Source: Pseudisothecium myosuroides
Lineage: Eukaryota; Streptophyta; Bryopsida; Hypnales; Lembophyllaceae
Direction: 5' to 3'
Length of the DNA: 64,000 nt
Assembly (NCBI GenBank): GCA_951799445.1
Contig: OX637297.1
Location: forward strand, 124,001 to 188,000
A program made the position numbers and the translations under genes. Shown here in pieces: positions 13,603-42,237 of the stretch. The notes under the pieces are model-generated. The model worked only from the letters and a program-made list of their open reading frames with translations, ran no database searches and was not told where the DNA came from. How positions within the stretch are numbered: position 1 is the first letter of the stretch; the number at the start of each line of letters is the position of its first letter.

Positions 13603-13613
13603 CTGGGTTGTCA
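13603..13613 (+). repeat. terminal inverted repeat, left
   Basis: CTGGGTTGTCA is the exact reverse complement of 42227-42237. Homology to the terminus at 3105 continues through the next ~60 bp of spaced ACGTCC motifs. Confidence 0.8.
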
Positions 13614-13723
13614 AAACTGAACGTCCGGGGCCAAATCACGTCCAAAATCCGGACGTCTGGACGCAGCGTCCGATCGGACGAGGTGGGTAAAACTGCCGTA
13701 AAAAAAAATTACCTCAAGTAATT

Positions 13724-13866
13724 CGGACGCCGCGGTCGGCGGTCGGCGGTCGTCTTGACGACCGCATCGGTCGGCTTTCCGCTGTCGGTGAGCCGACCGC
13801 GTCGGTCGGCTGCCGGTGTCGGTAATCGGGGTCGGCGTTGAGTCGGTCGGGGCGGTCGGCCGGAGG
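13724..13866 (+). repeat. left subterminal GGTCGG array
   Basis: Repeated GGTCGGC/GGTCGG motifs, mostly in one orientation, with a few inverted CGACCGC. The same hexamer recurs at the right end (41518-42115, same strand orientation) and beside each gene promoter. Subterminal motif arrays are the usual transposase-binding sites of hAT elements; binding here is inferred. Confidence 0.7.
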
Positions 13867-13867
13867 G

Positions 13868-14288
13868 GTTCAGGATTTCAGGCTGTCACTTTAACAGGGA
13901 CGGAAAAAATTTTAGAACATACATGGTACATCAGCTATTGGCCTATTGCAATTGCAGCCACTTGCGGAGTTATTTCATTATTGATGTTCAAGAGGTCATG
14001 GGTTCGAAACTTACTTTGTACCTTGTTCTTCATTTTCAATATCCAGCGCTTATAAATAGTTACAGATTTCTATTCTACTTCAAGTTGAAATGGGGTACTA
14101 TAGAGGTATAAGCGCTTTTAGTCAGGCCTCATTGTTTTTTGACTCATTTTTTCATCTTAATTCAAATATGCCGAAGTCTTTTTGGGAACTTTTAGGAATT
14201 TTGATCTACATCGAATAGAAATCCAACATTTTCGTAGGTCACATTCATTCTTTTTGAATTTTAGCTGTATAAATTTAATTTACACATA
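13868..14288 (+). repeat. direct repeat copy 1, SINE-like part
   Basis: This stretch, with a B-box-like GGGTTCGAAAC near 14010 and 'agcgcttataaatagtta' near 14045, recurs at about 19400-19768 in the same orientation. In both places a TTAA element follows. The pair flanks the transposase gene. The box sequences hint at a tRNA-derived SINE, but a clear A box is lacking. Confidence 0.45.
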
Positions 14289-15225
14289 TTAACCCCTAAA
14301 GTTTCAAGGCCATTTTTTGGCCAAAAAGCACTCAAAACTGCCATTTTTATAGCAAAGAGTAAAAAAAATTGAAAATTATTTTTTTTATCACATAACCATA
14401 GGATCTTATACTTTACTAGTATGGCAATGCGTGGAAAATATTTCAAAATTTTTGACCACACTGATTGCAAGATATCTGCGTTTAAAGTGAAAAAAACAAG
14501 TTTTTCAGCACATTTTGGGACGAGATTTTTTGACTTTGAACATTTTTAACTTGAAATTTCTGCACTACAGAGTTTTGAGCTTTAAATCTATATATTTTAT
14601 AATTGAGTTGAGAGTCTAGCAAAAAAAATCAAATCAAAAAAACTTAATTTTCATTACTAAAAAAATTGTTAAGTAGAAATAGGTACGAGATAGAAGGAAA
14701 ATCTAAAATATTAATATCTTTTACATAGAATTGAAATGAACTAATCCCAACGGTGAGATTGTTCTAGCAAAAACACTAAATCACGCGTAATTTTTTTTTT
14801 TGAAAAATTATAAACATTGCATTCAAAAATGAATCCTACAAGTGTTTTTTTTCAGAAAGATCAGAAGATGCTCTAAGTGCCCGAAAAAATAGATTGTCCA
14901 TAACTTTCTCATAACAAATCCAAATGGAATGAATCAAAGCTTCAGGGATAGACAAAAATATAATCTATGGGAAAAAAATTTAAAATAAAATAAAATGAAA
15001 TTTGCAACATTTTTTTTGCTGCCCCCTCTCCCTTGTTTTGAGCTTATTTGGGCGTAACTTTTGTTCCCGGGCACCAATTGAAAAAAAAATTATATTCCCA
15101 TGAAGCTTATCAGTTTTCCTATCTTCAAAAAAAGTTTCAAAAAATGAGGACAAAAATTCAGCCTGTAGGTACCTGCCCAAAATCCCAAATGTCCGCCAAA
15201 CGGACAATGGTCCTTTAGGGGTTAA
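14289..15225 (+). mobile_element. TTAA/CCCCTAAAG element, copy 2
   Basis: It starts TTAACCCCTAAAG and ends CTTTAGGGGTTAA, giving 9-bp inverted termini inside TTAA. It is 937 bp with no coding capacity. Landmarks are 'ctcaaaactgccattttt', 'ggatcttata', 'ttgcaagata', 'gtccataactttctcataac' and 'cccgggcaccaattg'. Best used as the family reference, together with 35623-36555. Confidence 0.8.
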
Positions 15226-15490
15226 ACTAGGACAACTATGAAGGTGAAACTCTTCACTACATACAATTCTTGCAATATATTATGCTTCATTGAAGAAAGA
15301 AAACATACAATCAAACTTTATTGAATTATAATCCAACAGTTTGAATATCAAACCATCTTAGTGGTGTTTTGTACATCACTAAGCAAAGTAGACAACTAGT
15401 ACCACAATATAATGTTCTACCAACCAATTAGCATTACGTGCTCTATGTATGAGCATCAAAACATTTAAGCGATTCAAGGCCTTTCAATCT

Positions 15491-18400
15491 CTAAGGCTTA
15501 TAATCACTATCCCCTTTTACCTCAGCCCCACTACAATCTCCTCTACTTCTCCATTCCACATCTTCATCGGATGTCACTTCCATGTCGTCAGATGAAGAAT
15601 ACAAAGTTCTCACTCCTCCGTGCTGTACTTGCCTTGATGTAGATAATCTCCTTGGTTGGTCCTTGCTCTTTTCCCTTTTTACTCTTAATATGGCGTTCCT
15701 CCTATCTTTATGAAGGGAAGGAATTGTTTTCATTTTCCCCTTCGAAGAAGGAAGACATGCATCAAGGGGAGTTCTACCTACACCTTGTCTCTTGGTTGGG
15801 CTCGCTGCAAAAGGCTCCATTTTCCTTTTACTTTTGGATTTTATGGAGTGTTGGGCATCCAATTTCACTGCTCCAGCTCCTCCTTGAATAGTTACCTTCA
15901 TTGCATTCAAAGACAACGTTGTAGGAGCTGACGATTTTGTCGAGTGCCGTGGTGGTGCATGACCAGATTCCCGAATAAACATTTCTTCCAATGTCTCGTT
16001 CATCTCACCATCGGTCGATGGTAAATTGATTGGAGATGAATTGATACGAGGTTGCATTTTTTTTGAAATTCGGACAACTCGTCTTCCTACACCTGAACTT
16101 CCTGAGCCATCCAATGCTACACTAGGAGTTTCGCGTGCTACAGGAAGAACACCGCTATATCGTGCTCCTCTGCATTCTTCAATGACTTGTTTCTTATCTT
16201 CATCATGGTCCAAAGAAATTGGGCTCTCAGACCCATGTATCAAACCTCCATCAACATTTCTTTGGACTTCGCTTGGCTTGTCATTTTCATGACTTCGTTC
16301 CCCGCTCTTCTCATTTACCAATACCACAATGGATTGAACACTTGCATTGCCCACATTCATTCGAACATTCAACTGACATTCTCCTTTGTCAATGTGCTCT
16401 TCATTCTCTTGCACTTCTACCATTGTCATGGATGTACACTTCAAACTTTGAAGAACTTCATCCGCTTTTGGAGTGTCATCATTGACATTCCTTGTCCCAT
16501 TCGCCTCCGGATCTTCTACTTAAGCCGCTTCCCCTTGCGATACGATATTTTGGCTATTCAAAAATCCGGTCCCATCGCAAAATCTAGCTAGGGGAATATT
16601 ATCTTCATTGTCCATATTGATGTCCTCGTCCGATTCATCGAACTCATAAGCATCTCGATGATTGACCCCAAAGTCTTCATTACTGCGATTAGGGCTCTGA
16701 AGCGGTCCATTGTCATAGTCCTGCATGTCGTCGTTTATGGCATTTTCCTCACTGAATTGTGGCCCATAATCCTCGTCAACTTCCTCGTCTTCCGAGATAA
16801 ACCCCTCTGAATCTTCTGACTCCACGTTCTCATGGTACCACTTCTTCTCATCATTTTCTTTTGATGCCGTTAAAACTTTCGAATTGCTGTACACATACAC
16901 CAAATCTGCTGCTCTTTGTGGCTTCAACTTGTTCCGAGATTTGTTGTGGACAAACGAATAGTTACTCCAATTTTGTTCGCATGAAGATGATGATACTAGT
17001 TGGGCCAATATCCTCTTTGCAATTGGAGCAATGAGCTTCCTACATGCACCTTCAAAATCCCACCAAGCATGTGCCGACAACATCTGTTCGCCCGGGTCTA
17101 ACATGTTATGGAACGGAGGGGTTCTATGTCGAAAGGCTACAAATTCCCTCACGACCATTGCGTAATCTTCGGGTTTACAAATTTTCATTATAACTCGCTT
17201 GCATGCCTCCGTTGCATCTGTGTCGTCAGCTAGTTCTTTATCGTGCAGCAAGTACGGGTTCAGAAGAGCTCCTGCATAGTGTAGATCTGTCTCCCCCATT
17301 TTTCGTCGGTTCACAAATGAGGCCTGCAGTCGTTCTGCTCGATTTGCGGGCAAAGAAAATGGCTCTTTCTCCAAGTCCATCACATGTTTCTCTAAACCCT
17401 TCATAATATGCAATACCTTTCCCATGCATGGTGTCTTCGCATCCAAGTCGCGTAGAGCAAATACAACTGGACCCACTACATCTCGGATATTGACACAACG
17501 ATTCCAGAAATGCGAATCGAGAACAAATTTCTTGACATCTCGAGACTCAGATCGGGGTTGTGTTTTCCGATTGTCCTTTAGCTTCCGCACATACTCCACC
17601 CACTGCGGATCCACCACACTTTGTTGTAATGCTGCTTTGACCTTCAACAAACAGTGAATCATAATAAAATTCGAGGCAAACCTCGTTTTGGCCGGCAACA
17701 ACAAGCTATATTTTGTCTCGTGCTTTCGAAATATAGCAAGCGGCATCTGCCTACTCTTGAAGAATTTCACAATGGCATGGGCTTTCTTCAGATACTCATC
17801 AATCCATTTTTCCTTCCCCCAATCTTTCAACAACAAATTCAAGGCATGCACCACGCATCCTTGAGAATAAATGTGTGGATACTTACTGGATACCAAATTC
17901 CATGCCGCTTGATTTACCGGAGCATTATCAGCACTGATTTGTACCACATTGGTGGGACCCACGTGCTCTATAAACTTTTCCAAGACAGATGCCATATACT
18001 CTGCGTTTTTTTCCATCCCGCTTGTATCTACCGATCCAACAAATTCCTCTCCGGCAGAAGATACGAGCATGGCATTTATCAATGGGCAGTTTGTAACCGA
18101 GCTCCATCCATCAATAGACAATGTTGCTCCAAACTTCCTTATGCTATCTTCGGTTCTTCTCAGGAGCTTTGCCTGAAGGTCCGTCTTTGCTTCGTCAAGC
18201 AATTTGCATTGTAGATCATGATATGATGGTGGTGTGTACGGCCTATTCCACTCTACCGTGAATTTTACTGCTTCTTTAAAGGTTGGATTTCAGGCTACAG
18301 CAAATGGTATATTTGCCGCATAAAAAAAATTGGCCCACACTGCATTCAATTTGCGTTTGTGTGCTTCTTCAAATCCATCTATTAGCCTGCTTTGTTTGTA

Positions 18401-18820
18401 CGGCCTACTGCTGGATGCCCTGGGAGTTCCACGTTCACCAGATGTTTCAGTAATTCGATTCCCTTCCGAACCCACACGAAGAATTTCTTGCGGTACTGTG
18501 CATGAATCTTCCTGTGTAGAACGTGATCTGTCCCTGCCATTAGAGAGGTCACTCCCGTCCGTGGGCATGTTGTTTCTATCCACATTGTCCACACTCGATC
18601 TCCGTGGGAATTTCCCTTCACAACGACGAAATAGACCTCAAATCTCTGATGTCAATTTCGGACAAAGGCAAACTCCGGTATCACGAGCACCAGATGCGCC
18701 TTCATATCCTAGATGGCTCAACATTCGCGCGGGCTTTTTAGCAAACAACAAGTTGCAAGCCTTGCACTGCACTTTACTCGGTGGCATGAGGCCATACCAA
18801 GGAGAGAAGTCCTTGCTCAT
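15491..18820 (-). pseudogene. hAT-family transposase (BED-like finger, DUF659, hAT dimerisation domain)
   Basis: One minus-strand frame runs about 1110 codons from ATG at 18820 to TAG at 15491, with no frameshift. In-frame stops lie at 18638 (TGA), 18290 (TGA) and 16520 (TAA). Near residues 14-35 is a BED-like zinc finger (CKAC..HLGY). Around residues 230-320 lies the DUF659 RNase-H-like core, with Asp in SIDGWSS (~237), Asp in SADNAP (~298) and CVVHALNLLLKD. The hAT C-terminal dimerisation motif follows (SSSCEQNWSNYS, then RNKLKPQRAADLVYVYSN). About 340 further residues form a Ser/Lys-rich tail that is also present in the relative at 52308-55618. That relative has sense codons opposite at least two of the stops, so they are decay rather than true ends. 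A TATA box lies 250 bp upstream. It presumably mobilised the 28.6-kb element. Confidence 0.85.
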
Positions 18821-19065: not shown

Positions 19066-19078
19066 CACTTATACTCCT
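19066..19078 (-). promoter_or_regulatory. TATA box of the transposase gene
   Basis: The minus strand reads AGGAGTATAAGTGC, about 250 bp before the ATG at 18820 and just downstream of the GGTCGG array. The position parallels the other three genes. Confidence 0.5.
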
Positions 19079-19141
19079 GAACTGCTGCCGACCGTTGGAG
19101 AGGAAATCTGCTCGCTTTCAACAGTCAGTCAGTTTCTGCCG

Positions 19142-19370
19142 TCCGATTTCCGATCAAGGCGGTCGGCGAAGTCGGGGCGGTCGGCCGGAACCGCCGGTCG
19201 GGAAAGTCGGGGCAGTCGGCCGTTCGGAGCGGTCGGCCGGAACTGCCGGTCGGCCGTTCGGGGCGGTCGGCCATTAGGGGAGGTCGGGGAAGTCGGGGCG
19301 GTCGGCCAATCGCGGCGGTCGGGGAAGTCAGGGCGGTCGGCCATTCGAGGCGGTCGGCGGAGCTGGGCAA
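19142..19370 (+). repeat. GGTCGGCC array upstream of the transposase promoter
   Basis: About 20 copies of GGTCGG or GGTCGGCC, alternating with 'GGGGAAGTCGGGGC'-like spacers. It lies directly upstream of the transposase TATA box. Long frames here are translations of the repeat. Confidence 0.8.
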
Positions 19371-19768: not shown

Positions 19769-20738
19769 TTAACCTTTAAAGGTTTTTTACTATGTTTTCA
19801 CCATAATTGTTTGAAAAATGCCATCTCCAGTACAAGTAGCAAATTCTGGGAAAAAAAATTCCACCATACATATAACCGGAGTATCTCGTAGTAAATTATT
19901 CAAACAAATTCTGGAAAGACTTTTTCAAATTTTCACCATGTACATTGCAAGATAATAGCTTCTGAATCGACAAACACGCTTTATTGGGCCCTGCGAAAAT
20001 CAAGGCACCTACACTTCACAAAGTCACATTATATAATAAAATGACAAAACCGATTGTAAATCTTTCGGTTCTTTTTCCTAAAGAAGTTGGCCACGTGCTT
20101 GAAAATTTTTAAGTTCATTTGAAATTGTACAATTGTTAGAAAAAAAATAGTAGGTAGAAAGAAGTGGAGAATGAATCAAATCATTAAATTGTTACGAATT
20201 TTATTATAGAATTGGAAAGTGCCAATTCAAACGGTTGTAGTGTTAAAATAAATAATTTGCATCCAATGTTTTCTTTTCTTCCAACAATATTGAAATTTAA
20301 ATTAAATAAATGACTTCAAAGCTTTTTTTACAGTAGGGATTCTATAACTACCTTCAAACTAAGAATCCTTATAAATTTTGATTCACTCATTTGAAATAAA
20401 TGATTGAAGCTTCCCGCGTATATATAAATCTATAGAGCCAGTTTCAAATTTTTGATTTAATAAAAAGGGATTTTAGAAGAACCTTTTTTTACTTTCCGGG
20501 TTGTCCAAACATCAAAGAAAACTACATAGTACATATCATGCAATAACTTTTTCACTTTGTTACCAAATGTTATGAAAATTGTTGGGCCTTACCGCCTTAC
20601 AAATATTCCTTGAGTCCTTGGATACATCATACATCTAGTGTGAAAATTTCAAAGGAAAAAAAATAAAATTTCATTAACAGTGAGTTGCCCAAAATCACTA
20701 TGTTTCCAGAAAACCATGTCTCGTACTTCAGGGATTCA
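19769..20738 (+). mobile_element. TTAA element, copy 3 (decayed)
   Basis: It starts TTAACCTTTAAAGG and ends near 'cttcagggattca', a mutated CTTTAGGGGTTAA. Its interior is closest to the ~960-bp subfamily at 28460, 34446 and 39555 ('ggatct.gtagtaaatt', 'cacttcacaa..gtcacat'). Confidence 0.6.
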
Positions 20739-22257: not shown

Positions 22258-25200
22258 TCAGCACCTGCCACTACCTTCTCCCGAAACAGGAGATGTCCCT
22301 TCTCCAGCCAAGAGTCTTCTAGCAGCTTGTCGAGTTTGGTGTTGTTGACTTACTCGAACAATGCGCCCTCCGGATTGCACTTCTTCGTCAACCTTGGAAA
22401 ACAACCGCTTTGATTCCGGAGAGTGGTCATCCTCATCTTCAACCCTACGTTTCCTCTTCCTCGCGGGAGTCAAATCTACTTTGCCGGCGCTCAGAGCTCT
22501 CAAAGCAACATCCACTCGATCTACCATCGCGTTCACTGCCACATCATCGTCTTCGGATTGCAAATTGTTCGGTCGATCTCCTTGCAACAAGAATGCCCTC
22601 CATTGAATTATAATGTCGGACATCCTCCTGTCGAATGCCCCTGCCACATCTACTAATGCATGCTCTGTACTTGTTGCTGCATCTACTTGGACAAGAGCGC
22701 GAACTTTTGCAGCCTCTTCCAACTTGGACAAGAAGAAGGCCCTGCCAATCAAAGTGTGGTTATACGCGCCGTACTGCTCCTTAAACTCTTTCGGACCCTC
22801 CACCTCCACCCAATTGCCATCTGGCCCTTTTTTCACCTCCTTTTCAGGAAATCGGAAGAATTTCTGGTGCTGCAAGCTCCAATGCCCCCCCATGTTGCGA
22901 CAAAATAATTCACGACCCTCTTCATTTTCAATAACTCGTGCTCGCAACTCCACCTCTGTGTTCATAGTCATCCACATGAGATCATCTACCGGTTCTTGGG
23001 ACTCCTCGTAAAGTCCATGCTTTCGCTCATTTGCATCCCATGTCAGAGGTTTTCCCCAATGCAAGTAATTCGAAAACTTGTATGGTCCTTGGTCCAACGA
23101 TTGTATTCGTGGCCAGGGGGCATCACTTCCAAAATCCCAAGCATTTCATAGAACCTAGGACTCAAAGGAGAGCGACACTCCGCACAAACTGAACGAATGA
23201 GCGATGCTCTAACCATGCATGTTACATGGAAAGTGTGACGACATTGGCCCATAGTTAGAGCTCCTTCAGAACCGAAGGGGCCTTGACAAACACTACAATG
23301 ACCCTCCAAGATGCCCGGAGCCGGATCACAAGCGTGCACTACAACCTTCTCATGCTTCTTGATGTGTGCTGAAAGTGTATTGTAAGGCACCCATCCTTCC
23401 TCTGCTTCGAAGGTCCAATTCACATTCTTAATTGGTGATTCCTTCTTCGTGTGATTCAAGCGCTCAAACATGACATCCATGTCTCCCCAACATGTAATTT
23501 CGGTATACCCCCTAATTCCTTGATGGAACGCATTTTGGAACCTCTTTAAAGAGGTCTCAATGGCACTACAATCTTCAGCCGACTTCATTGCCAATTTTTG
23601 AAGCCCTTGCATTGCTCGGGATACCACGGAGGGCCTGTCTTGGAGAATCGGGATACCACGGAGGGCCTGTCTTGGAGAATCTGCATCCATGCCAACCACC
23701 GATACTCCAATCCGTACCCAGGCATATAGTGACGCAAGTCCATTGTCTGTTTCATTTGTTCCAAGTCCGACTGAAGAAGGGCTTTTTCTCAATTTGTTTC
23801 ATTCAATTTTTGTTTCAGCTCTTCAAACTCCTGACCTTCAGTTTGCATGGAAGCATCCACCAGTGTCGGGGTAGGGTTATTGGTGGAGGGTCGTACCTGC
23901 ACTTCCCATCTACGGGTTTCCTCCTCGTCATCCAAATGCACAACTTCGGTCTCTTGCACTGCTTGAACTTTATCGAAAGGAAGAGAGAGTTTATCCTCAC
24001 TTTCTTGACTTGGCTCCACAGACGGGGGTTTCACATTGTCTGTGATGGGTACCCCTTCATGCATGCGATTGAATTTAATGAGTTCTGTTTCTAATCTTTC
24101 ATTCTCATCCACACGGACAAGCATTAATGAATTCCTGCGCTTTTCTGCCTCCACAAGCTTTTTCTCCATCTGCACTTGTCGGGCCAAGTCCTTGTACTTT
24201 GCCTTCAACTTCATGTTTTCTGACTCCAAGAGAAGCACCTCGCTTGCTTTGCCTACATTGTCGTCGAGAAGTGGTACCATGGACTTTGTGAAATCCAAGA
24301 AAGACAAGGCACCAGTCATCAATTCTGGAGAGACTCTAGAAAATTCTTGCGCCATCTCGATAATCCTTGGCGTAATTTGAGCTACAAGTCGAGCTGAAGA
24401 AGTTAGCGAGAAAGCAGTTTCCACAACCGATGGCTTGATAGCTCCCCATAAATGCACTCCAGAGCTGCTGGCCTCGTGGTTGGGGTCATTTTTCTGAAGC
24501 TCTTCTTGATGCTTCTTCCACCGATTATCGCAGTCTAGCAGGAATTCCACTTCCTTGGTAGTTTGCATTAGACCAAGGTTCTCCATTGGGTCATCACCTG
24601 GTGGTGACAAATGTGGATGCTCGCTTTTAGGCTCTATCCCATCAATAAAAAGGTTCATGGCATCGTCTTGGGGTTCTTTTCCGTGTCATCGTGTCGGTTG
24701 TACTTCCATTTCTGGACTTAGGATTAGACTTGACGGTAAAGACGAAGGCGGAAGAGGTGTGTACATCAAGGGCTGTAGAGCATTGCTCTCTAGAAGACTA
24801 TCAATTCTAGCATTGGCCCTTGCAACTTCTTTGTCGCCAACCTCCTTTCGTGGCAAAATAGGTGCCCCATTTCCTATCGCGGGGCCGCATTTGTTTGGAG
24901 CAGTCTCTCGACCTAACACAGTACTCAAAATCGGTTTGGAAGTCAAACACATTTGAGGAGTCAGAAACACCTGTCTCTTTGCGCCTCCCGAAGCGGCATT
25001 GCTCACTTTCACTGGGGGAGTTGGTAAGACTTCTTCTATTGTACCTCCCGCGAGGGCATTGCCAACTTCCGCAAGGGCATGCAATGAACCCAACTGCGCT
25101 GCATCACTTGTCCCCTCCCCAACCTCCGTTGTATGCGTTGTAGTAATTTGTAATGCTTCTTTGGGTTTTGCCTGAGGCCTGGGGGGACAATGGGGAATAT

Positions 25201-25672
25201 CTTTCTGGTTTCTTCCAATCAGAAGTGGACACTGTGCTATTGTCGGAAACATACTCCAATCCACTTTGCGGCCCAGTATGAGTTCCGTATAAACCATAGA
25301 TGCCAAGGTATAATTGATGTACCCCTTACTCATTCCCTTGTCTCCAAAAAGCGCCCGCCAGACCTCCTTCGATCGACAAACAAATTGCGAGTTTTGGCAA
25401 CTCCCTGGTTTGCAACCGAAAGCCCGTGTGTGGACCGAGTGAAATTCTCGAGGCCACAACTTGCCAATGTGGTACATTTTAACATACTGCTTGCAGATTT
25501 TGGAGGTCCAATACTCTGCTCCCTCTTCCTCCCATCCGCTTTCGGCTTTGATGTCAGGATTATCTAAAATCTCATAATGAAGCTCATGTTTGGCTCCCTT
25601 CTGTTTAATCCTTTTCGTGTTATCACCACCTGAAGTCATCCCATCGGTAGTCGCATCACCTTCACCAGTCAT
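22258..25672 (-). pseudogene. large accessory protein with coiled coil and RING-H2 zinc finger (cargo gene 2)
   Basis: ATG at 25672; the frame is interrupted by TGA at 24686 and 23789. A 32-bp tandem duplication near 23610-23675 then shifts it, and a second shift lies near 23080. Order of parts: residues ~20-130 are a conserved N-terminal domain shared with the gene at 31538 (YWTSKICKQYVKMYHIGKLW and KVDWSMFP); then a low-complexity linker; a coiled coil encoded around 24270-24060; and a RING-H2 finger at 23175-23297 with spacing C-x2-C-x14-C-x-H-x2-H-x2-C-x10-C-x2-C. A C-terminal region carries a basic ARKRKRR cluster that could be a nuclear signal. RING-H2 fingers usually make E3 ubiquitin ligases; the substrate is unknown. 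It could instead have been captured from the host. The TATA box sits in the CCGACC array about 228 bp upstream. Confidence 0.75.
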
Positions 25673-25892: not shown

Positions 25893-25906
25893 GCTCTTAT
25901 AGCCGA
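25893..25906 (-). promoter_or_regulatory. TATA box of the RING-H2 gene
   Basis: The minus strand reads GTCGGCTATAAGAGCGG, fused to the edge of the CCGACC array and about 228 bp before the ATG at 25672. Confidence 0.6.
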
Positions 25907-30390: not shown

Positions 30391-31240
30391 GACCGATGTG
30401 CCAAGCCACCGACCGATTTCCCGACCTCTGTCCAGACCGCTCGGACGACCGTTCTAAAAGCCGACCGAAATTGTGACCGACCGAAAACCCCACTGATCGA
30501 TCGAGAAGCCGACCGAAAAGCTGACCAACCGAAATGCCGACCGAAAACCGGAGACCGAAAACCTGACCGACCGAAAACCCGACCGAAAACCCGACCGACC
30601 GAAATCCCGACCAAAAACCTGACCGACCGAAAACCCGACCGAGAACCCGACCGAGAACCCGACCGATAACCGGGCCGACCGAAAACCCGACCGAAATCCC
30701 GGCCGAAAACCTGACCGACCGAAAACCCGACCGAAAATCTGACCGACCGAAAACCCGACCGAAAACCCAACCGACCGAAATCCCGACCGAAAACCCAACC
30801 GACCGAAAACCAGACCGACCGAAAACCAGACCGAGAACCCGACCGATAACCAGGCCGACCGAAAACCCGACCGAAATCCCGGCCGAAAACGTGACCAACC
30901 GAAAACCCGACCGAAAACGCGACCGATAACCGGACCGACCGAAAACCCGACCGAAATCCCGGCCGAAAACCTGACTGACCGAAAACCCGACCGAAAACCG
31001 GACCGATAACCGGACCGATCGAAAACCCGACCGAATAACTGACCGAAAAACTGACCGACCGAAAACCCGACCGAACGATCGGACGACCGACTCCGTCCAC
31101 GCCGTCCGCCTTTTCCGTCCGCTCCTTTGTCGATGGCCGTGCGATCAGCAGATCGACAGATGAGAACCGCAGGATCTTGGGGTCGGTCGGCCTGCCGTCC
31201 GATTCGGACGTACGCGACCGCCTCGGCTGCTCCGCCGACC
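30391..31240 (-). repeat. GACCGAAAACCC array upstream of the UIM-protein gene
   Basis: Roughly 50 CCGACCG motifs, most in the form 'gaccgaaaacccgaccgaaa' with spacers of about 12-16 bp. It is the mirror of the array at 41518-42115. Long reading frames rich in FSVGFSVG / KPDRKPD on both strands are translations of the repeat, not genes. Confidence 0.85.
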
Positions 31241-31243
31241 AAA

Positions 31244-31257
31244 CGCATAAATAGCGG
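31244..31257 (+). promoter_or_regulatory. TATA box of the UIM-protein gene
   Basis: AACGCATAAATAGCGG lies at the downstream edge of the array, about 290 bp before ATG 31538. Confidence 0.55.
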
Positions 31258-31537: not shown

Positions 31538-32644
31538 ATGTCACACGGAACACCAAGGGGCAAAGACAAGAAGGCCAAAAGGGGAATATCGCAGGACATT
31601 AATTGGGATGATTGGGCTAACTCATTTTGTGTAGCTGAGCCTGGATGGGATGATGATGAGGAGAAATTGTGGACCTCCACAATGTGCAAAAAGTACGTGA
31701 AAATGACACACGTCTCCAAACTTTGGTCACGTGAACGCACGCTTTATCAACATCCCCGTTGGGAAGGTCAAATCAGCACATGTAAGAGCGAGCACTTTGT
31801 GCAACGGTACAAGGAAATCCAAAAAGCATCAGGTTTACCAAACAACAAACCAAATATAATGTTGTATGGTGTCATGGCCATGATTTGGGCAGAGATTGTA
31901 CTCCACAAAGAAGTGGATTGGCGCACTATTCCGGGTAAAGATGTGCACAAATTGAATCGCAGCACCCACGTGATTGATTCGAACTAGGAAGGTCCGAGCA
32001 ATTGTATGTACGAGTGGTCTAATCGAGGATTTAGCCATCTTCCCACAGTTGTGTTGCCGGATGCAGAGGATGAACTCGATGACGAAGATGATGATGCTCC
32101 TGCACCCGTAACATTTGGAAGAAGACACGAACGCCAAGAAGAACGAGACAACATACAATACGAACAAGAAATGCATGAGGCAATGCGAAGAAGCCTAGAA
32201 GATCATGGTCGACAGCCTGGGCACGATAGGTCATACGGACATGACCGTGGTGCATATGGCCCACCACAAGGCGGAAGTCATTCTCAATATGCTAATGATC
32301 CCCGAGGTGAATCTCAAGGCAGAGAAAGAACCCATGGAACCGTACAGTATGGTGGTTCCAGCGAAGGAGGCTCACAATACTACGGTGGAACCACTGGAGG
32401 TGGGTCATATGAACATCACGGGAGCTCCTATTATAGTCGTCCAAACGAAGATCGCTCTGACCACAACGTTTCAGCTCCTCCACCAACTTTTGGAGGTCCT
32501 AGCTACGGCAATTATGGACAAACAGGTGCATCAAATGGACGTGGAGACATCTATGGTGGAGGTCCATATCTTGGGATTTATGGGTCTGCTTCTACTGGGC
32601 CAAGTCAGAGAGATGACACCGATTCAGATTCCGAGGAGGAATAG
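31538..32644 (+). CDS. accessory protein with ubiquitin-interacting-motif-like helix and Gly/Tyr-rich tail (cargo gene 3)
   Basis: A single frame from ATG 31538 to TAG 32642, interrupted once by TAG at 31985-31987. Residues ~20-140 form the N-terminal domain shared with the gene at 22258-25672 (LWTSTMCKKYVKMTHVSKLW; KEVDWRTIP). After the stop comes an acidic run (EDELDDEDDD). Next is YEQEMHEAMRRSLEDH (32156-32206), which fits the UIM pattern: acidic patch, hydrophobic residue, Ala, then Ser four residues later, followed by Leu and acidic residues. The tail is rich in Gly, Tyr and Ser, prion-like, and ends in acidic residues. UIMs bind ubiquitin; binding here is predicted only. A second ATG at 32006 could start a separate shorter protein. 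The stop may be a CAG-to-TAG change. Confidence 0.65.
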
Positions 32645-33151: not shown

Positions 33152-34092
33152 TTCAACCCTTGAAGTTCGAAGGTCATTTTTTGGTTTACAAATACCCGAA
33201 GCTGCCATTTTTGCTGCATTCACCCATGAACCCTTTTTTTTTCTTTTTTTTTCCAATCTAAGCGTACGATCTTGTACTTCACTTATTGTAGATGATGTTG
33301 TCAAAATTTCATGAAGTTTCACTGTATAGGTTGAGGTTATTAGCATTCGAAGTCGAAAAAGATTTTTTTTTTGAATACTGGCTTTCAGTTTTTGGTGAAT
33401 TTGATCGCTAGTTGTGGAATATTTTTGAAATACAAACATTGAATTTAAGGTTTTATGTGTTGGAGACGTAAGTTGAAAGTCTATATTTTTCTTAAAAAAG
33501 GAACACTTTATTTTCATTATTTTAAGAATTATTAAATAGAACTATAGAAGTACGTCGAAGACAAGAAAGAAAAAAAATTGTTAGTAGATCTTACATAGGG
33601 TTGAAGTATAATGATCCCATTGGTGAGATTATTTAAGCTAGAAAACACAACATTTTGAAAAAAAAAATTTGAAAAATTGTGGGAATTGCATTGATAAAAG
33701 AGTTCTACACTTCTACAAGTCATTTTCCTAAGAAGATGCTCAAATTCCCTGAAAAGCAAAGTTCTCCATAACTTTTCCATTATTAATCCAAACAGAATGA
33801 ATGGAAGGTTCGCATATAGAGAGAATTATAAAATTTTTGAAGAAAAGGAAAAAAAATCATTTTGTCTATTTGCCAAATAATTTGTGCTTCCCGTCAAGTT
33901 CAATTTCAGAGTTTTTTTGGTGTAACTTCTACTCCCAGGCACCAATTGAAATAAAAACATATTATGACAAAGCTAATCAACTTTCCTATGAAATAGGAAA
34001 GTTTCAGAACGTTTTATTACAAATTGAGGTTAGAGGTAACCGCTCAAAATTCCCTTTGTCTTGGAACGGGACAATGGAAGTTCTGGGGTTCA
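33152..34092 (+). mobile_element. TTAA element, copy 6
   Basis: Begins TTCAACCCTTGAAG and ends TTCTGGGGTTCAA, worn versions of the family termini. The interior follows copy 2 ('aagctgccatttttgctgc', 'cccaggcaccaattg'). Confidence 0.6.
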
Positions 34093-34445
34093 ACATTGGA
34101 TGTGCATTTTGGGCTCCATCAAGTGGACTATCATTAGGAGAAATATTTCGCACCATGGATCTTTAGTGTACAATTTCTTATCCCCAAGAATGCAGTTGAA
34201 AACTTAAAAAACTCTTCTAAGGAAGATAGAGCTCGACTTACATTCCTAAACCTGCAAGGCCGAAGGCCTTATTTTTGGCAACAAATCTTACAATTGTGAA
34301 TTGCCATTTCTATAGGAAAGAAGAGAACAATTAGAAAATTAATTTTTGGGCACATGTAGCCATAGGATCTTATACCCAACTAGTATAAGAATTTGTGGAG
34401 CATTAGACATAATTTTGGACCACACATATTGCAAGATATTTGTAT

Positions 34446-35404
34446 TTAGCCTTTAAAGATTTTTGACTAAGTTTGTACCAAAACTACTGTAGCACTATTG
34501 GATTCAGTATAAGTACCAAATTTTATAAACTTTTTAATGTTGGACACATATAACCGTAGGATCTCGTAGTAAATTGGTTAGAAAAGATGCGGAAAAACTT
34601 GTAGAATTTTTCACCATCTAGATTGTAAGATAATAGTGTTTCAATCCGCAAAAGTGCTTCTTTGGTCCCTCCGGAAAACGGGGCAGCTGCACTTCACAAG
34701 GTCACATTCATTTTAAAAAATGACGAAAATTGGGGTAACTCTTTGGATTCATTCTTGAAGGCAAGTTCGGTCCATGCTTGACAATTTTCAGATCATTTAC
34801 AATTGTACAACACATAGGAAAAAAATACAAAATAGAAAAAAATAGAGGATGATTGAAAACACTAAATTGTTAGGAATTTGATGAAGGAATTGAAAAATGC
34901 CAGTCCCAATGGTTGTGATGTTGAAATAAAGAATCTTGAAACCCAATATATTTTTTTTTTCCCAGAAATACTGAAATTTGAATTAAACAAATGACTTTGA
35001 TTTTTTTTTGGAAGTAAGGATTGAAAAAATACCGTCAAACTAAAAATCCGCTGGAGTTTTAGCTTGGTGATCGGAATGGATTAATGGAATGATTCAAAGC
35101 TTCTTTTGTTTATACAAATCTAAAGAACCAATTTTAAATTTTAATTTTTGAAGCAAGTGATTTTTGAAGACGTTTTCTTGTTGCCTGAGCTGCCCAGAGA
35201 TAAAAAAAAATACTTATCATGCAAAACCTTTCTGACCTTGTGGTTAGATGTTATGAAATTATTGGGCCTGATCCGCTTGAAAGCTACTCGGAGAGCACAT
35301 CGTGTGTGAAAATTTGAAATAATGAAAATAAAAATTCTATGCATAATAAACTATCCAAAATTGATATCTTGCCCAAAAATAGTATTTGGGCCTATAGGCG
35401 TTAA
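34446..35404 (+). mobile_element. TTAA element, copy 8 (nested)
   Basis: TTAGCCTTTAAAG to 'cctataggcgttaa', 959 bp, ~960-bp subfamily. Inserted in copy 7. Confidence 0.6.
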
Positions 35405-35622
35405 AGTGGAGAAAAGAAGTTCTTAAAGACATTATGGAATGCAGTGTTTTGATTTTGAAGATTTCGCACTTGAAATTTTTGCAATAGTGAGTTGTGAGCT
35501 TTGAATCTGGAAGTTGGAGAATTGTGTTGGTAGTTTAGCCGAGAGGAAATTAAAAAAAAATTTAATTGTCAAAATTTTTTATTATTCATATATGGAAGTG
35601 CCAAAGTGGATACAATGAATCA

Positions 35623-36555
35623 TTAACCCCCAAAGTCCCAAGGCCATTTTTCTGTCAAAAACCACTCAAAACTGCCATTTTTGCTGCGTTCATCCAAGAA
35701 CACAAAAAAAATCATTTTTTTAAAATATAACCGTAGGATCTTGTACTTCACTTGTTAAAGATCATGTGGTAAAAGTTTCATGAAGTTTGACCGTACGGAT
35801 TGGAAAATATTAACATTTGAAGTTGGAAAAAGAAGCTTTTTTGAACTGTGGCCTGTAATTTCAGATGATTTTGACCGCCATTTGTGGAATTTTTTTGCAC
35901 TATAGACTTTGAATTTAAAATTTTTTATGTTGAATATGTGAGTTGAGAGTCTATAAAAAAAATTTCAAAGAAAAAACACTTGATCTTCATTCTTTAGAAA
36001 ATTGTTAAGTAGACGTAGGTCCAAGATTGAAGGAAAAACTAAATTGTTAATAGCTCTTAGACGGGATTGAAATACAATAATCCCAACGGTGAGATTGTTT
36101 TAGCAAGCAAACACAACATCCTCAAAAAAAAAAAAATGAAAAACTGTGAAAATTGCATTCAGAAATGAACCCTACAAGTTATTTTTTTCAGGAAGATGCT
36201 CTAAGTGCCCCAAAACTAAGATTGTCCATAACTTTCTCATAACAAATCCAAATGGAATGAATCAAAGCTTCAGATTTAGACAAAAATATATTCTTTCAGA
36301 GAAAAATGTCAAAAAAAAAAAAGTTGACTTTTTGCAAAAATTTTTTTGCTGCCCGCCGAGTTCGGTTTGAGGGTTTTTGTGGTATAACTTTTGCTCCCGG
36401 GCACCAATTGAAAAAAAAATTATATTCCCACGAAGCTTAGCAGTTTCTCTATCTTCACTAAAAGTTTCAAAAACTCACGACAAAAATTCAGCCCGCAGGT
36501 ACCTGCCCGAAATCTGATTTGTCCCCCGAGGGGACAATGGGACGTTAGGGGTTAA
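35623..36555 (+). mobile_element. TTAA element, copy 9 (nested)
   Basis: TTAACCCCCAAAG to CGTTAGGGGTTAA, 933 bp, closest to copy 2. Inserted in copy 7. It is one of the best-preserved copies. Confidence 0.75.
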
Positions 36556-36962
36556 ATTTTAATATCTTTTGCATTAAATAAGACTAGGGTAATTCAATGG
36601 TAAGATTATTGTAGCCCAAAACAATGAACCACACAGACCTGTTTCTGTGAAAAAAAAAATTGAAGAAATTGCATTCATCAATGAAATTCTACAAGTTCGT
36701 TTTCTCAAGTGCCTTGAAAATAAGATTGTGTAAAACTATTTGTAACCAATTGAAATGGAATGAATGAAAGATTTCTAGGTAGACAACAGTAGCACGAATG
36801 GGAAAAAAATCCCCTCAAAAAAACTTCCTTTTGGGCTGCCCTCAGCCCTCCTCTTCCCTATTTTCAGCTTATTTCAGCAGAACTTTGGATTTCCGGAATG
36901 TAGGCACGATTGCGAAAAAAATTCTATTTCCATCTTTCTACGAACTTAAGAAAACCAGCGAC

Positions 36963-37180
36963 TCCCCGCCGACCGCCCAGTCTGCCGACCGCCGACTGTG
37001 CCGACCGCCGACTATGCCGACCGCGAGCCGAACCCTAATCTGTCACCGCCGTCCGATGCGGCGGATGGAGCGATCGGGCCGTCCGATGCGGCGGGGTGCT
37101 CGATGGAGCGGTCGGGCCGTCCGATGCGGCGGGGCGCTCGATGGAGCGGTCGGGCCGTCCGATTCGGCGGTCGGGGCGAC
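36963..37180 (+). repeat. GACCGCC / GGTCGGGCCGTCCGATGCGGC array upstream of the kinase gene
   Basis: The first part has CCGACCGCC motifs. The second has a 36-39-bp unit, 'cgatggagcggtcgggccgt', repeated three times. It joins directly to the TATA box. Confidence 0.75.
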
Positions 37181-37185
37181 CGCAA

Positions 37186-37197
37186 ACTATAAGAGGG
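37186..37197 (+). promoter_or_regulatory. TATA box of the kinase-like gene
   Basis: GCAAACTATAAGAGGGG, about 256 bp upstream of ATG 37446, abutting the array. Confidence 0.6.
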
Positions 37198-37445
37198 GCG
37201 GACGGCCAGACCGCTCCCTCACTTTTGCTATCCCCCTTGCCTTGTGCAAGCGTGGAGTGGAGAGCTTGGTGGTTTGTCCTCCATTGGCTCCTCTCCTTGG
37301 GAAAGCAAGAGTCTGGTTTTGGGGGCCACTTATTGCCAATTTTTTTGACAACTTGATTGCAGATTACGTGTACTCCAGAGTGAAGTGAAATCGCGACTGG
37401 TAATTTTCATTACCGATTGTAATTAAATATCGGTAGTTCATCAAG

Positions 37446-38930
37446 ATGCCAAGGGCAAAGAAGGCTGCAAAGAGGCGAGACGGGGTGCAATCTGGGCAAC
37501 CAAGTATCAAAGAGTTGAAGGAAATTCCCTCTGATGCATGCAAGAACTTTCTCATCGAATTCACCTTGAAATTCTTTGAGTCTGAAACCACTCTTTCCTT
37601 GGACAATAAATACATCAGATACCAAGAGGAGTGCCCAAAAAAATTCATGGATGATATGTCGCAAAAGATGATGGAAGCCCTTCACGTTCCTGAATGGCAT
37701 CATGAAATGGAGAAGAAGGGCTTTGTGAAATTCCTTCACAACAGGGCGTATGATGCGTTGTGGAATTCCAAAGTGGTTCTCGCAAAATATGTGAAGCAAC
37801 ACCGCGCCGATGATGAAGCCTTTCAAGAAGTTATCCTCAGAGCTGATTTATTCACGAAGCGGTGCAAGCCATTTGCTAACACGCGCAATAGAAGGAAATC
37901 AATGACATGGTGAAATAGCGATGATGGAAAGGATGAATTGTACCATGGCAGGAGACATCTCATTGCACTTCCAGATACGGCACAAGTGATTGCCCAAGAT
38001 GATAAAATTATAAAGGGTGGATATGCTACTATTCGGAGGGTCCGAATTGAAGGATGTGCTCCTATAGTACCGTTTTGGGAGTTTGCAGCAAAGAGATCTC
38101 ACCAACACAATAAAAGGCCTGAGTTAGCGAAGTTGGAACACCTGAACGAATCAATGGCAGTGAGGATTGCGCACCCTGGAGTAATACGTTTTTTTGCAGT
38201 GCATGCAACAAGGAATGAAGGGTACTCCTATTGGTGGAATGGTGGGACACTGCAAAATATGCTGAACATGGATAATGATTATCCAGACAACATACAGGTT
38301 CGGTTGATGTATGACAATCCATCGGAAGCAGAGGTGATTAACGTTTTCCGCCTTGCTCGATTCAGGAAGAAGCGAACGGAACTTACATGGGCGTTCGTGC
38401 ACATTATGAATGCAGTGCATGTTGTTGGACATCTCCACAATGATATTTCTCCAGACAACATCATGTTTCACTTTCCCGACAATGAGTCACGTGTGTATGT
38501 TGGAATTTGTGATTGGGGCTTAACTAGCTTAGCTAGTGAACGTCCTAAATCCTTGTACACATTCACATCTGCCATTCAGAGGGATCAAACTTTGACACAG
38601 AGGTGGTGGTTGGATCCCAGTAGCGCCTACTTGCACAAAATTGATGCAAATGAGGACGTCATTCCAAGGTTATCATGTGAAACGGAAGCATATGCGGTTG
38701 CTAAAATAGCTCAGAGGATGAACAGGCAGTGCATGTCCGAGGCTTACACTGCATTGCAGAAGGAAACTTCACAATGCAGCAGATTCGAACACCACACATT
38801 GGGACTGGCGTTTCACGAGTACTTACAACGGGTCATCAGAAAAGAAAGCACTTTGGCTCACGTCGTGAATCGATTCTGCACTACTTTCAAGTTTCCTATG
38901 CCCGATGAATATTTCCGGCAATCATACTAA
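37446..38930 (+). CDS. protein-kinase-like protein (cargo gene 4)
   Basis: A single frame from ATG 37446 to TAA 38928, with one in-frame TGA at 37911-37913. The first ~155 residues start with a basic cluster (RAKKAAKRR, possible nuclear signal) and form an alpha-helical region I do not recognise. After the stop comes a kinase fold: Gly-rich KGGYATIRRV; EFAAKRS with the likely ATP-binding Lys; HPGVIRFFAV and a NGGTLQNML hinge-like segment. The catalytic loop is HNDISPDNIMF (Asp present; Lys of HRDLKPEN replaced). CDWGLTSL stands in place of DFG, so Mg-binding Asp is kept. The HxDIS form recalls some fungal and plant divergent kinases. Activity is plausible but unproven. If TGA terminates translation, only the N-terminal part is made. 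A spliced intron across the stop would be too short (about 42 nt). Confidence 0.75.
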
Positions 38931-39554
38931 ATATCAGTAGGTTACCAACTTACCGTAATCTATAGAGGTACATAAGTAGGAGACTAGGGGATGAATTTAG
39001 ATATGAGGATTTATCGTGTGTAGAGGACGTAGTATGTATGCACATATAATCTATACCAATGTATGTGGAATTGGATATACAATTTGATTTTTTGTGTGTT
39101 TTTCAAATTGTAATGAATACAAATGTTTACTATACAAATTGTATGCTTTGTGTGGATGAGAAGTGCAGTACTCCTTGTTAATGGATATTGGATTGTCGCG
39201 GTTGCATGACAAATAGAATGATATATGACATTTGGATATTTTGAACTTAGGCGTCAAGGGACACATGTGTAGGGTGAAAGGAATATTAGAAAAATTTCAA
39301 GATCCGAAAGGCCAGAAAGTGAAGTGTAAATTAGGAAGGAAATTTTAATTCATATCATTCAAAAGATTCATAAGGATTGAAGGTTTTTACCATTTCATGG
39401 ATACAAATCCCCTACCCACAAAAAAATAGGGTGTGAAAAGAGAGGTAGAAAACGAAAGCAATGATAGTACATAATTGAAGATGAGAAGGTGTCAACGTAA
39501 AAAAAAAATTTTACGCTGCGAAAAGTTTGTTTTTGAAAAATTGAGGGTGTGAGC
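38931..39554. other. 3' flank of the kinase-like gene, no gene
   Basis: AT-rich. No repeat or RNA signal that I can support. Confidence 0.4.
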
Positions 39555-40498
39555 TTAACCCCTAAAGGTTGTTGACTATATATTCACCCAAAACGTTCTG
39601 AAACTGCCATTTCCAAAAAATAACCCAAATTTTAGAAAGAAAATATTTTAGGACACATGTAATTATTGGATCTTGTAGTGAATTGGTTTAAGAAGATGTG
39701 GAAAAATTTTCAGAATTTTCCACCATGTATATTGCAGGGTAACAACATTTGAATCGACAGAAATGTTTTTTAGGTCCGGGCCAAAACCGGACAGCTGCAT
39801 TTCACAAGGTCTCATTTGTATCGGAAAGTATCAATAATGGTGGTTTCATTTGGATTCATTTTCAAGGTGAAGCTGGCTCTGTGCTTGAAAATTTCCAAAA
39901 CATTAGGAATTGTACAACATATAGAAAAAAAATAGCAAACAGAAAGAAGTAGTGAATGATTCAAACCACTAAATTGTTAAGAATTTAATTATATAATTGG
40001 AAAATGCCAATCCCAATGGTTATAATGTTGTAGTAATGTATCTACATTCTTTTTTTTCTTTTTTTCAAAAGATATTGAAAATTAAATTGAATAAAGGATT
40101 TTAAAGTTTATTTCTGAGCAAGGAATCCAAAATTGCCCGCAAACTAGATCACCGCGTACTTCTGATCTCATAAATGAAAAAAAAAAAATTCAAACCTAAA
40201 CTTGCATATATAGATCTAGAGAACTAGTTTGAAGTTTTATTCTTTTTTTAAAGCGATTTTTAAGAATTTTTGAGCTGCCCACCAAGCATTAAAAATCACA
40301 TATCAATATATCATACAATAACTTTTTAATCTCTAGGTTAGAAGTTATGAAGAAAAGTTGGACCTTAAAGCTACTCCTCCTGAAAATGCCTTGTGAAAAT
40401 TTGAACTAAAAAAAATAAAAACTCTGCTTGTAGTAAGTTGCCCAAAAATGCTATGTTCTCCAAAGACCAAAATGCATGTTCAATGCCTTGTGGATTAA
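39555..40498 (+). mobile_element. TTAA element, copy 10
   Basis: TTAACCCCTAAAGG on the left, 'ccttgtggattaa' on the right; 944 bp. The interior matches the ~960-bp subfamily. Confidence 0.7.
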
Positions 40499-41517
40499 AT
40501 TGAAACTTTGATAGAAGTCGTAGTATCTTACCCAAAATAAGATGGTGTGAAAATAACTTTAAAAAAATGTACAACAACCATATTGAGACAATGTTATTTT
40601 CCCCCCTCCTTGAAAGTAATGTGTAAAAAGAGGAACTTCTTTTTACACCGATTGAAGTGTCTTTCCACAAAAGTAGGGTGTGATAATAAACCAAAAATGC
40701 CACACCTATTAAAATTTCTTATTTTTGATTGTTCCAAATTGATGATCTTCTCTTCTGGTAATCCAAACTTCTCTATTGTTCTTGTTTGGTTACTTCAACG
40801 CAATGGTAGTCGCATTTTCATAGCAAGCAGTTGCATGACATTGCGGGATGACCTTTGTTCCTAATAACTGTTATTTCTTTCAATGAAAATCAGCACTCTT
40901 CAAAATATCCTTAATTCATTTCAATCATTTACATCACACCAAGCAATTCTTACCATAGCCAAAACTTCTCAAGGACCCTTACGCAAAATTCTATTTCCAC
41001 TCAAACACCCGCGTACGTTCATTGTTGAGTTCCTAGTGACCTAGTCCCATTATTCCTATAACATTCAGTAGCTTGTAAACCAAAAAAAAAAGGAAAATTT
41101 TTTTTTTGTACAATTTGTATGACAAGATTATTTGGCTTTGTCACTTTGTGCCTTCTAAGCTTATAAGTTTTTAACTATTGATATTCATTTCTTAAATTTT
41201 TTCTCTTAAATATTTGAGTGAAAAATTTAGGAAACAAATTTAGGAAAATATAACTAAATTTTCATTCATTATAAAATTGGTAAGTGGAACTAGGTTTCAG
41301 AATCCCGGAAAAAAAAAAATCATTAATACATTTATTATGAAAGTGGAACTTGGAACACAACTCCCTTTGGTTCGGTGTATTGTATCCTTTTTATCAATGG
41401 AAATTGTTCATGTGTTTTAAAAAAAAAAAAAAAACAGAATACAACAATCCCAAAGCTCACATTATTTTAACAACCGATTTGAAGCATGTTTATTAATTTC
41501 TTCGGAGAACTTGTAAA
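40499..41517. other. AT-rich stretch without a gene
   Basis: Homopolymer-rich. The last ~200 bp carry worn TTAA-element phrases ('aaaattggtaagtgg'). Nothing codes. Confidence 0.4.
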
Positions 41518-42115
41518 AACGGGTCGGGATTGGGGTCGGGTCAGGTTTTCAGTCGGATTTTCGGACGGGTTATCGGTCGGGTTGACGGTCGGGTTTTCGG
41601 TCGTGATTTCGGACGGTCAGGTTTTCGGTCGGGGTTTCGGTCGGTCGGTCCGGTTTTCGGTCCGGTTTTCAGTCGAGAATTCGGTCGGTCTGGTTTTCGG
41701 TCAGGTTTTCGGTCGAGAATTCGATCGGTCTGGTTTTCGGTCGTCGGTCGCATTTTCGGTCGGTTCGGTTTTTGGACGGGTTTTCGGTCGGGTTTTCGGT
41801 CGGTCCGGTTATCGGTCGGGTTTTCGGTCGGTCCGGTTATCGGTCGGGTTTTCGGTCGGTTAGTCGGTCGGGTCCTCGGTCGGTTTTTCGGTCGGGTCTT
41901 CGGTCGGTTTCTCTCGGTCGGTTTTTCGGTCGGTTTCTCTCGGTCGGTTTTTTGGTCGGGTTTACGGTCGGTCGGGTTTTCGGTCGGTCGGGTTTTCGGT
42001 CGGTCGGGTTTTCGGTCGGTTAGTCGGTCGGGTCCTCGGTCGGTTTTTCGGTCGGTTTTTCGGTCGGTTTTTCGGTCGGGTTTACGGTCGGGTTTTCGGT
42101 CGGGTTTTCGGTTGC
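41518..42115 (+). repeat. right subterminal GGTCGGGTTTTC array
   Basis: About 45 GGTCGG motifs in one orientation with TTTTC / TTATC spacers, the reverse complement of the 30391-31240 array. It lies directly inside the right terminal repeat. Confidence 0.85.
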
Positions 42116-42226
42116 GGAATTTACCATGTAGGTAAAAAACATAAAAAGTGAATGTCACAGGACGTTGGGGGGGCAGCGTCCCCGGACTTTGGACGTCCGT
42201 TCGAACGTCCGAACGTCCGAACGTCC
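42116..42226. repeat. right subterminal GGACGTCC/GAACGTCC repeats
   Basis: Four to five GAACGTCC/GGACGTCC copies directly next to the terminal repeat correspond to the ACGTCC motifs next to the left terminus. Confidence 0.6.
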
Positions 42227-42237
42227 TGACAACCCAG
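42227..42237 (-). repeat. terminal inverted repeat, right
   Basis: TGACAACCCAG, exact reverse complement of 13603-13613. The 8-bp duplication TGGAAGAG follows at 42238-42245. Confidence 0.8.

Follow-up and report, generated by a model that had tools for sequence, protein, structure and literature searches.

The 64-kb window analyzed here (positions 124001-188000 of contig C11 in the 388-Mb assembly of Pseudisothecium myosuroides, which consists of 222 contigs) contains a 28.6-kb transposon block at 13603-42237, located inside the gag gene of a long terminal repeat (LTR) retroelement. The block carries four genes, all of them single-exon, encoding a hAT transposase, a RING protein (gene 2), a zinc-finger-like protein (gene 3) and a protein-kinase-like protein (gene 4, below the kinase), and it is a member of a genuine giant hAT family, active in the recent past, in which this module of four genes is conserved. 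The locus is composed of the following features (window coordinates; aa, amino acids).

3255-50271, minus strand: host LTR retroelement, LTRs at 3255-8287 and 45265-50271, 5-bp duplication GGCGG on both sides
13595-13602: left target-site duplication TGGAGGAG, from the boundary reading and the empty sites
13603-13613, plus strand: left terminal inverted repeat CTGGGTTGTCA, 11 bp, exact
13614-13702: left subterminal CGTCC/GGACG repeats, 6 in the outer 100 bp
13730-13870, plus strand: left GGTCGG array (motif clusters)
15491-18820, minus strand: hAT transposase gene, single exon, 1109 codons in register, with in-frame stops here
19073-19365, minus strand: transposase promoter region, TATA-like box (~19073) and GGTCGG array
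22258-25672, minus strand: gene 2, RING protein, 1131 aa where intact, N-terminal Cys-rich domain resembling gene 3
25896-26250, minus strand: gene 2 promoter region, TATA-like box (~25901) and GGTCGG array
30400-31253, plus strand: gene 3 promoter region, CCGACC array and TATA-like box (~31247)
31538-32644, plus strand: gene 3, 368 aa, conserved N-terminal domain rich in Cys/His, tail of low complexity, a single in-frame stop
36965-37215, plus strand: kinase promoter region, GGTCGG/CCGACC array and TATA-like box (~37188)
37446-38930, plus strand: gene 4, protein-kinase-like, 494 aa, helical N-terminal domain and kinase fold, one in-frame stop
41522-42115, plus strand: right GGTCGG array (motif clusters)
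42138-42226: right subterminal CGTCC/GGACG repeats, 7 in the outer 100 bp
42227-42237, minus strand: right terminal inverted repeat, exact reverse complement of CTGGGTTGTCA
42238-42245: right target-site duplication TGGAAGAG, matching the left one at 7 of 8 positions

Insertion into gag and copies in the genome

The sequence CTGGGTTGTCA has just two exact copies in the window, and these are the two element ends. CGTCC/GGACG repeats reach six or more per 100 bp in 12 of 6390 overlapping 100-bp segments, all 12 at the same two ends. The preliminary description of this stretch had listed perfect 11-bp inverted ends, an 8-bp duplication with seven matches and subterminal ACGTCC repeats, and all three are recovered, the repeats standing above the window background. 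It had also claimed that the interrupted gag frame resumes in phase, and following in silico removal of the insert and one duplication the frame indeed runs open through the junction (codon 607) to codon 673.

Empty sites holding one copy of the 8-bp target, proposed in the same description as a check, were found as well. Genome searches with a 300-bp left gag flank (40 of 52 candidates scored) and with the right flank (40 of 62 scored) covered 39 gag places other than the one in the window, and at 37 of them the right flank directly abuts the left one (gap 0), with a single copy of the target; for the two remaining places, the right flank lies outside the 40 scored right-flank rows. The block 13603-42237 entered the gag gene of the LTR element as one unit, and 8 bp were duplicated. 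The two host LTRs differ by 1.6% substitutions over 4918 aligned positions; the retroelement, taken without the transposon, is approximately 18.4 kb long with 5-kb LTRs.

Genome counts given below are lower bounds, each search having scored part of its candidates: 119 of 291 for the kinase, 111 of 508 for gene 3, 74 of 362 for the transposase, 150 of 374 for gene 2, and 40 of 46 for the left end. Co-location was analyzed for 103 of 123 kinase rows, 107 of 150 gene 3 rows, 102 of 150 gene 2 rows, and all 74 transposase and 40 left-end rows. The excluded kinase and gene 3 rows were the lowest ones, that is, second pieces (one at 87%), short fragments and 33% families, while the 48 excluded gene 2 rows were mostly 50-aa second pieces and weak or short matches.

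At least 42 kinase places, the window copy included, have been identified at 85% identity or more. Gene 3 is located upstream on the same strand in all 42 of them, gene 2 upstream on the opposite strand also in all 42, and the transposase, likewise upstream on the opposite strand, in 41; thus, all four genes occur in one order in 41 of the 42 recent copies, which are spread over ten contigs, and a correctly oriented left end is present in 38. About forty recent copies therefore share the four single-exon genes and, in most cases, the left end. This agrees with the earlier claim of a giant gene-bearing hAT lineage moving as one unit. The joint occurrence of the genes with both termini, suggested there as a further check, holds for the genes and the left end in the proportions just given, and for both termini in three other copies that could be read end to end.

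These three come from a set of five other copies that we fetched, the other two showing the right end only in the stretch fetched. The end-to-end copies are 25,979, 27,616 and 27,860 bp long and are flanked by the duplications GACACACT, TTTGGGAG and TAGCTAAT, each matching at all eight positions; the right 11-bp end is exact in all five. Pairwise substitution differences among the window copy and the three full copies are 1.0-1.8%, hence the family has multiplied recently. In the search with the 118-bp left end, two of the 40 scored places have no kinase within 60 kb. Both are on contig C2 (C2:44791225 and C2:44832267), in opposite orientation and 41 kb apart, with the transposase and gene 3 present; this pair at ~44.8 Mb is probably a rearranged copy.

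Beyond the recent group, the 103 kinase rows include 24 places at ~61-84% identity and 37 at 52-60%; 19 of the former and 34 of the latter have gene 3 upstream in the same orientation. A copy fetched from the most diverged group spans 18,142 bp, has the ends CAGAGTTGTC and CAGGGTTGCA and is flanked on both sides by AAACTAAT, a perfect 8-bp duplication. Its genes are arranged as in the window, that is, transposase and gene 2 (RING) on the minus strand followed by gene 3 (zinc-finger-like) and the kinase on the plus strand, and their protein identity to the window queries is 62% for the transposase, 57% for the kinase, 47% for gene 3 and 44% for the RING piece of gene 2. As a lineage with 44-62% protein identity retains the same gene order, the four-gene design is old.

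We also observe that 12 of the 24 places in the 61-84% group are on contig C11, which constitutes 16.9 of the 388 Mb (4.4%). It is possible that C11 is a non-recombining (sex) chromosome retaining dead copies.

The four genes

The hAT transposase reported earlier is confirmed by Pfam, with matches to DUF659 (PF04937, 117.9 bits at a cut-off of 34.7, E 4e-34) and to the C-terminal dimerisation region Dimer_Tnp_hAT (PF05699, 32.5 bits at a cut-off of 21.4, E 7.5e-08), the combination expected of this superfamily. So is the 8-bp target duplication, which is perfect in the three full copies and in the diverged copy and has one mismatch in the window copy. In 17 transposase sequences D60 and D121 are invariant and E438 nearly so; these residues are candidates for the catalytic D-D-E triad. 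As to the N-terminal BED-type zinc finger of hAT transposases, a CxxC...H motif is present at the start of the frame, but zf-BED of Pfam is not matched in two long relatives (P0058 and P0060). hAT elements have short inverted ends with a CAGNG-type consensus; the corresponding sequence is CTGGG in the window element, and CAGAG/CAGGG, imperfect, in the diverged lineage. The protein collection contains 86 relatives of the transposase, mostly unnamed, and its profile had no match among sequences of solved structures.

A second hAT transposase, a heavily broken relic with 68.7% DNA identity to that of the element, is located in the window at 52296-55664 on the minus strand, with no GGTCGG clusters around it.

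The three further genes mentioned in the preliminary description can now be assigned to a RING protein, a zinc-finger-like protein and a kinase-like protein, each with relatives elsewhere. Gene 2 is broken in the window copy, where it contains two stops and a tandem duplication of 32 bp and has lost some bases. Its RING finger has Pfam scores close to the cut-offs or slightly under them, and two relatives of gene 3 align with its N-terminal domain at 35% identity over ~115-122 residues. In gene 3, the positions of Cys, His and Trp are kept over ten sequences; 13 relatives, mostly unnamed, were found in the protein collection, and the structure model is poor (mean pLDDT 41.7), too weak for use.

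The kinase family retains the invariant Lys and the HNDxSxxN and DWG motifs in 21 sequences, while Pfam Pkinase scores are below the cut-off. The structure model, of moderate confidence (mean pLDDT 73.5), shows a kinase fold and, N-terminal to it, an additional helical domain, and a fold search with it returned generic kinases (TM-score by target 0.36-0.58 among the 50 listed). Compared with sequences of solved structures, the family profile gave weak matches only, to MAP kinases and casein kinase I-like proteins, and the single sequence gave none. There are 57 relatives in the protein collection, mostly unnamed, one of them, at 50% identity, from the moss Ceratodon purpureus. A kinase relative (P0044) and a transposase relative (P0063) come from contigs of equal length, 27,639 bases, which may be one and the same contig; none of the 13 relatives of gene 3 is on a contig of this size. 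We observed no kinase relatives in the genome_contigs collection when scanned with two short patterns, and no match in the plasmid collection. A prokaryotic or viral origin of the genes was considered and rejected, the transposase, kinase and gene 3 having no relatives in viral_contigs (two short patterns each). In ten scanned pieces of the four genes, no viral family, and thus none of the replication or capsid genes of virus-related giants such as Mavericks and Teratorn, scored above the cut-off, the single sub-threshold match being to Baculo_FP (E 0.08).

The window copy itself is dead, with in-frame stops in all four genes. Elsewhere in the genome, stop-free full-length frames are present, by manual count of rows, in at least 28 kinase, 27 gene 3, 14 gene 2 and 12 transposase places. 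The kinase is intact in 16 of 20 copies and has a pN/pS ratio of 0.37 over 19 copies; in the fetched copies the ratio is 0.26 for the kinase and 0.44 for gene 2, these values having no neutral control.

Repeat clusters and additional DNA

GGTCGG/CCGACC occurs 112 times inside the element, compared to 5.4 expected under mononucleotide shuffling, with a maximum of 13 in 100 shuffles. Clusters, defined as at least four such words in 300 bp, are found in the 64 kb at six sites only, namely both ends and the region upstream of each of the four genes; thus, to the two terminal arrays described before we add four, one per gene. Each of the latter adjoins a TATA-like box, and the distance from this box to the ATG is 229-291 bp. 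GGTCGG is unclustered in the diverged lineage, where clusters of another word, CGGACG, are located at both ends and at the promoters of gene 2, gene 3 and the kinase (41 occurrences in the 18-kb element versus 3 in the surrounding 18 kb). The presence of different words at matching sites indicates that the layout has been largely kept while the word has changed. The simplest reading would be that an element-encoded protein reads one word at both ends and promoters. Telomere-like CCCTAAA repeats are also present inside the transposon, upstream of gene 2 (26437-26469).

Some DNA of the window copy is a later addition, or has matches of its own within the element:

about 35626-36552: MITE-like 0.93-kb insertion bounded by ends of the TAACCCCTAAAG...CTTTAGGGGTTA type, missing in all five other copies
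14288-15226: similar ~0.9-kb module, one of six inside stretches matched in copies C3a and C4a
near 19769-20708, 28460-29422, 33155-34100, 34460-35405 and 39555-40460: five other such modules, matched in C3a and C4a

The 0.93-kb insertion is thus specific to the window copy among the six compared. The same TAACCCCTAAAG...CTTTAGGGGTTA-type family (~0.95 kb), with copies in the transposon at 14288-15226 and 35622-36556, has one more member, an inverted copy, at the left edge of the window (1-589).

Two long copies were examined for the content of their extra DNA, which largely codes for proteins of other transposons. In the first one it contains Transpos_assoc and DUF4218, along with a frame for a NIF-type phosphatase and two others that match no known family, and in the second one, DUF7869, a family linked to transposons. 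Other long copies may carry rare extra genes. Frames of two of these kinds are also seen in the window outside the element, DUF7869 at 55945-56955 on the minus strand and, ~4 kb away, a NIF-type phosphatase at 60660-61301 on the plus strand; in the first long copy, the NIF phosphatase and Transpos_assoc/DUF4218 frames share one inserted stretch. There may be a second kind of gene-bearing element in this genome.

Nature of the element and its relation to known systems

The best overall explanation, to which we assign a probability of roughly 0.8, is that the window block is a copy of a giant multi-gene hAT family that encodes, as we infer, its own control module. Cut-and-paste movement of the entire block is likely the work of the DUF659/hAT transposase, which would bind the subterminal GGACGT repeats. 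The three other genes plausibly constitute the control module of the element rather than passengers. A DNA-binding protein encoded by the element would recognise the lineage-specific repeat of ends and promoters (GGTCGG here, CGGACG in the diverged lineage), the candidates being the products of gene 2 and/or gene 3, which have the Cys/His-rich domain in common. Such a protein could couple gene expression to the state of the ends, as does TnpA in En/Spm. The RING protein (ubiquitin-ligase-like) and the kinase, in turn, may modify either the transposase itself or a host factor involved in repair or silencing, and this modification would let the excision and reinsertion of 28 kb succeed. An extended version of this reading, in which the family is an ancient self-governing hAT lineage with its own kinase, RING protein and zinc-finger regulator, where the repeat bound by the regulator is present at both ends and promoters and has been swapped in concert (GGTCGG for CGGACG) at the split of lineages, and where the module enables cut-and-paste transposition of 18-28 kb, a size well beyond that usual for such elements, is tentative and, in our estimate, falls somewhat short of an even chance; the module of such a lineage could possibly act on host repair or silencing proteins.

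Several observations weigh against this picture. Transposition, repeat binding and kinase activity are all predictions from sequence. In the second of the three full copies, the left 11-bp end carries a single mismatch. Many older copies are incomplete, with four genes in order in 8 of 24 places at 61-84% identity and 10 of 37 at 52-60%, partly because the genome searches scored only a part of candidates, e.g., of the transposase. The DNA-binding role suggested for gene 3 comes from the spacing of Cys and His and from a weak zf-C3HC match of a diverged copy, below the cut-off. The TATA-like motif is unselective and has no chance control, and no such box is seen in the stretch taken as the gene 2 promoter of the diverged lineage, where, in addition, the transposase promoter has no CGGACG cluster. 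Finally, the pN/pS ratios of the transposase (0.73) and gene 3 (0.75) in the fetched copies are near neutral, with no neutral control for any gene, so that selection is not demonstrated by these values alone.

Could the block be a chance composite, that is, an ordinary hAT of a few kilobases later invaded by unrelated gene-bearing elements? The window copy does have a later insertion (35626-36552), and some copies contain further nested elements, yet neither a chance assembly nor nested inserts can be the source of four genes that retain one order in almost all recent copies on ten contigs, mostly with the left end, and the same layout, with its own 8-bp duplication, in a lineage at 44-62% protein identity; the chances of this explanation are practically nil. 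Separate gene-bearing elements, each having GGTCGG-bounded ends of its own, are ruled out too, since the inner arrays are located at promoters and no further exact 11-bp end is present. Passive movement of a gene-rich host segment between two hAT ends, the macrotransposon proposed for Ac ends, has a precedent in size, Ac transposons of up to 22 kb being mentioned in an excerpt of PMC10175614; nevertheless, as the block has no exact ends besides a single left and a single right one, and its layout is conserved across diverged lineages, we regard it as very improbable, little better than the composite.

The preliminary description compared the element with Starships, the giant cargo carriers of fungi, and the corresponding rival reading is that captured host genes vary between copies and may benefit the host. 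There are genes beyond the transposase, the kinase and RING protein resemble host signalling genes, and in length the element would rank with the smallest Starships (27 to 393 kb, PMC10175614). In one long copy the extra DNA includes the NIF phosphatase frame and the two frames without a family, while in both long copies it also codes for proteins of other transposons. Against variable cargo, the same four genes in the same order are fixed in 41 of 42 recent copies and one diverged copy from a lineage 44-62% identical; therefore, the three extra genes are not cargo of this type. No DUF3435 captain, the tyrosine recombinase of Starships, is observed among Pfam matches of the four genes, and the element has instead a hAT transposase and inverted ends. 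As to copy number, we observe about 40 recent copies, compared to about 5 at most for Starships (PMC10175614). The reading is thus highly unlikely, and the "cargo-carrying, Starship-comparable" wording is to be reduced to giant size, several genes and mobility as a block, the gene set being fixed and old.

A less improbable alternative, still unlikely in our view, is that the extra genes help the element to persist in its host rather than to move, with the kinase and RING protein either weakening silencing or acting as a drive system in favour of carriers. Enzymes of these two types are suited to modifying or degrading host proteins, pN/pS is lower for the kinase (0.26-0.37) than for the three other genes, and the family has reached about 40 young copies, mostly of 26-28 kb. 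On the other hand, the repeat common to promoters and ends suggests that it is the element itself that is controlled, no gene resembling a toxin has been recognised, and no host target is known.

Among known systems, the multi-gene hAT family resembles Ac, Tol2 and Tip100 in the DUF659 and hAT dimerisation domains, short inverted ends, 8-bp duplications and subterminal repeats. It differs from these hAT elements in its length, 26-28 kb versus usual about 4-5 kb, in having four conserved single-exon genes instead of one, and in the repeat clusters common to ends and promoters. In En/Spm, the second element protein TnpA is thought to bind end repeats and control the promoter. The likeness to En/Spm (CACTA, TnpA/TnpD) consists in this combination of end-repeat binding and promoter control, proposed here also for a second element protein. 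CACTA elements have CACTA ends and a 3-bp target duplication, whereas the present element has a transposase of another superfamily, CTGGGTTGTCA ends and an 8-bp duplication, and hence is not one of them. Enlarged CACTA families of 16-20 kb with 4-5 ORFs (open reading frames) are described for the red alga Chondrus in an excerpt of PMC6431247. According to excerpts of PMC10175614, Tol1 and Tol2 are 4.4 and 4.7 kb long, and Teratorn, a piggyBac-herpesvirus fusion, is likewise a giant cut-and-paste element with about 40 copies per genome, albeit of 180 kb and of the piggyBac superfamily, in contrast to the 28-kb hAT described here. Our searches of the open literature yielded no earlier description of a giant multi-gene hAT of the present kind.

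Eukaryotic transposable elements are mostly shorter than 10 kb and carry few genes, and the efficiency of cut-and-paste transposition drops with size (excerpts of PMC6431247 and PMC10175614). Here, a hAT family has reached about forty copies, 26-28 kb long where read, with each gene intact in some copies, and at least one further lineage keeps the same four-gene design. This makes two questions testable: how a cut-and-paste element escapes from the size limit, and why a transposon keeps its own protein kinase.

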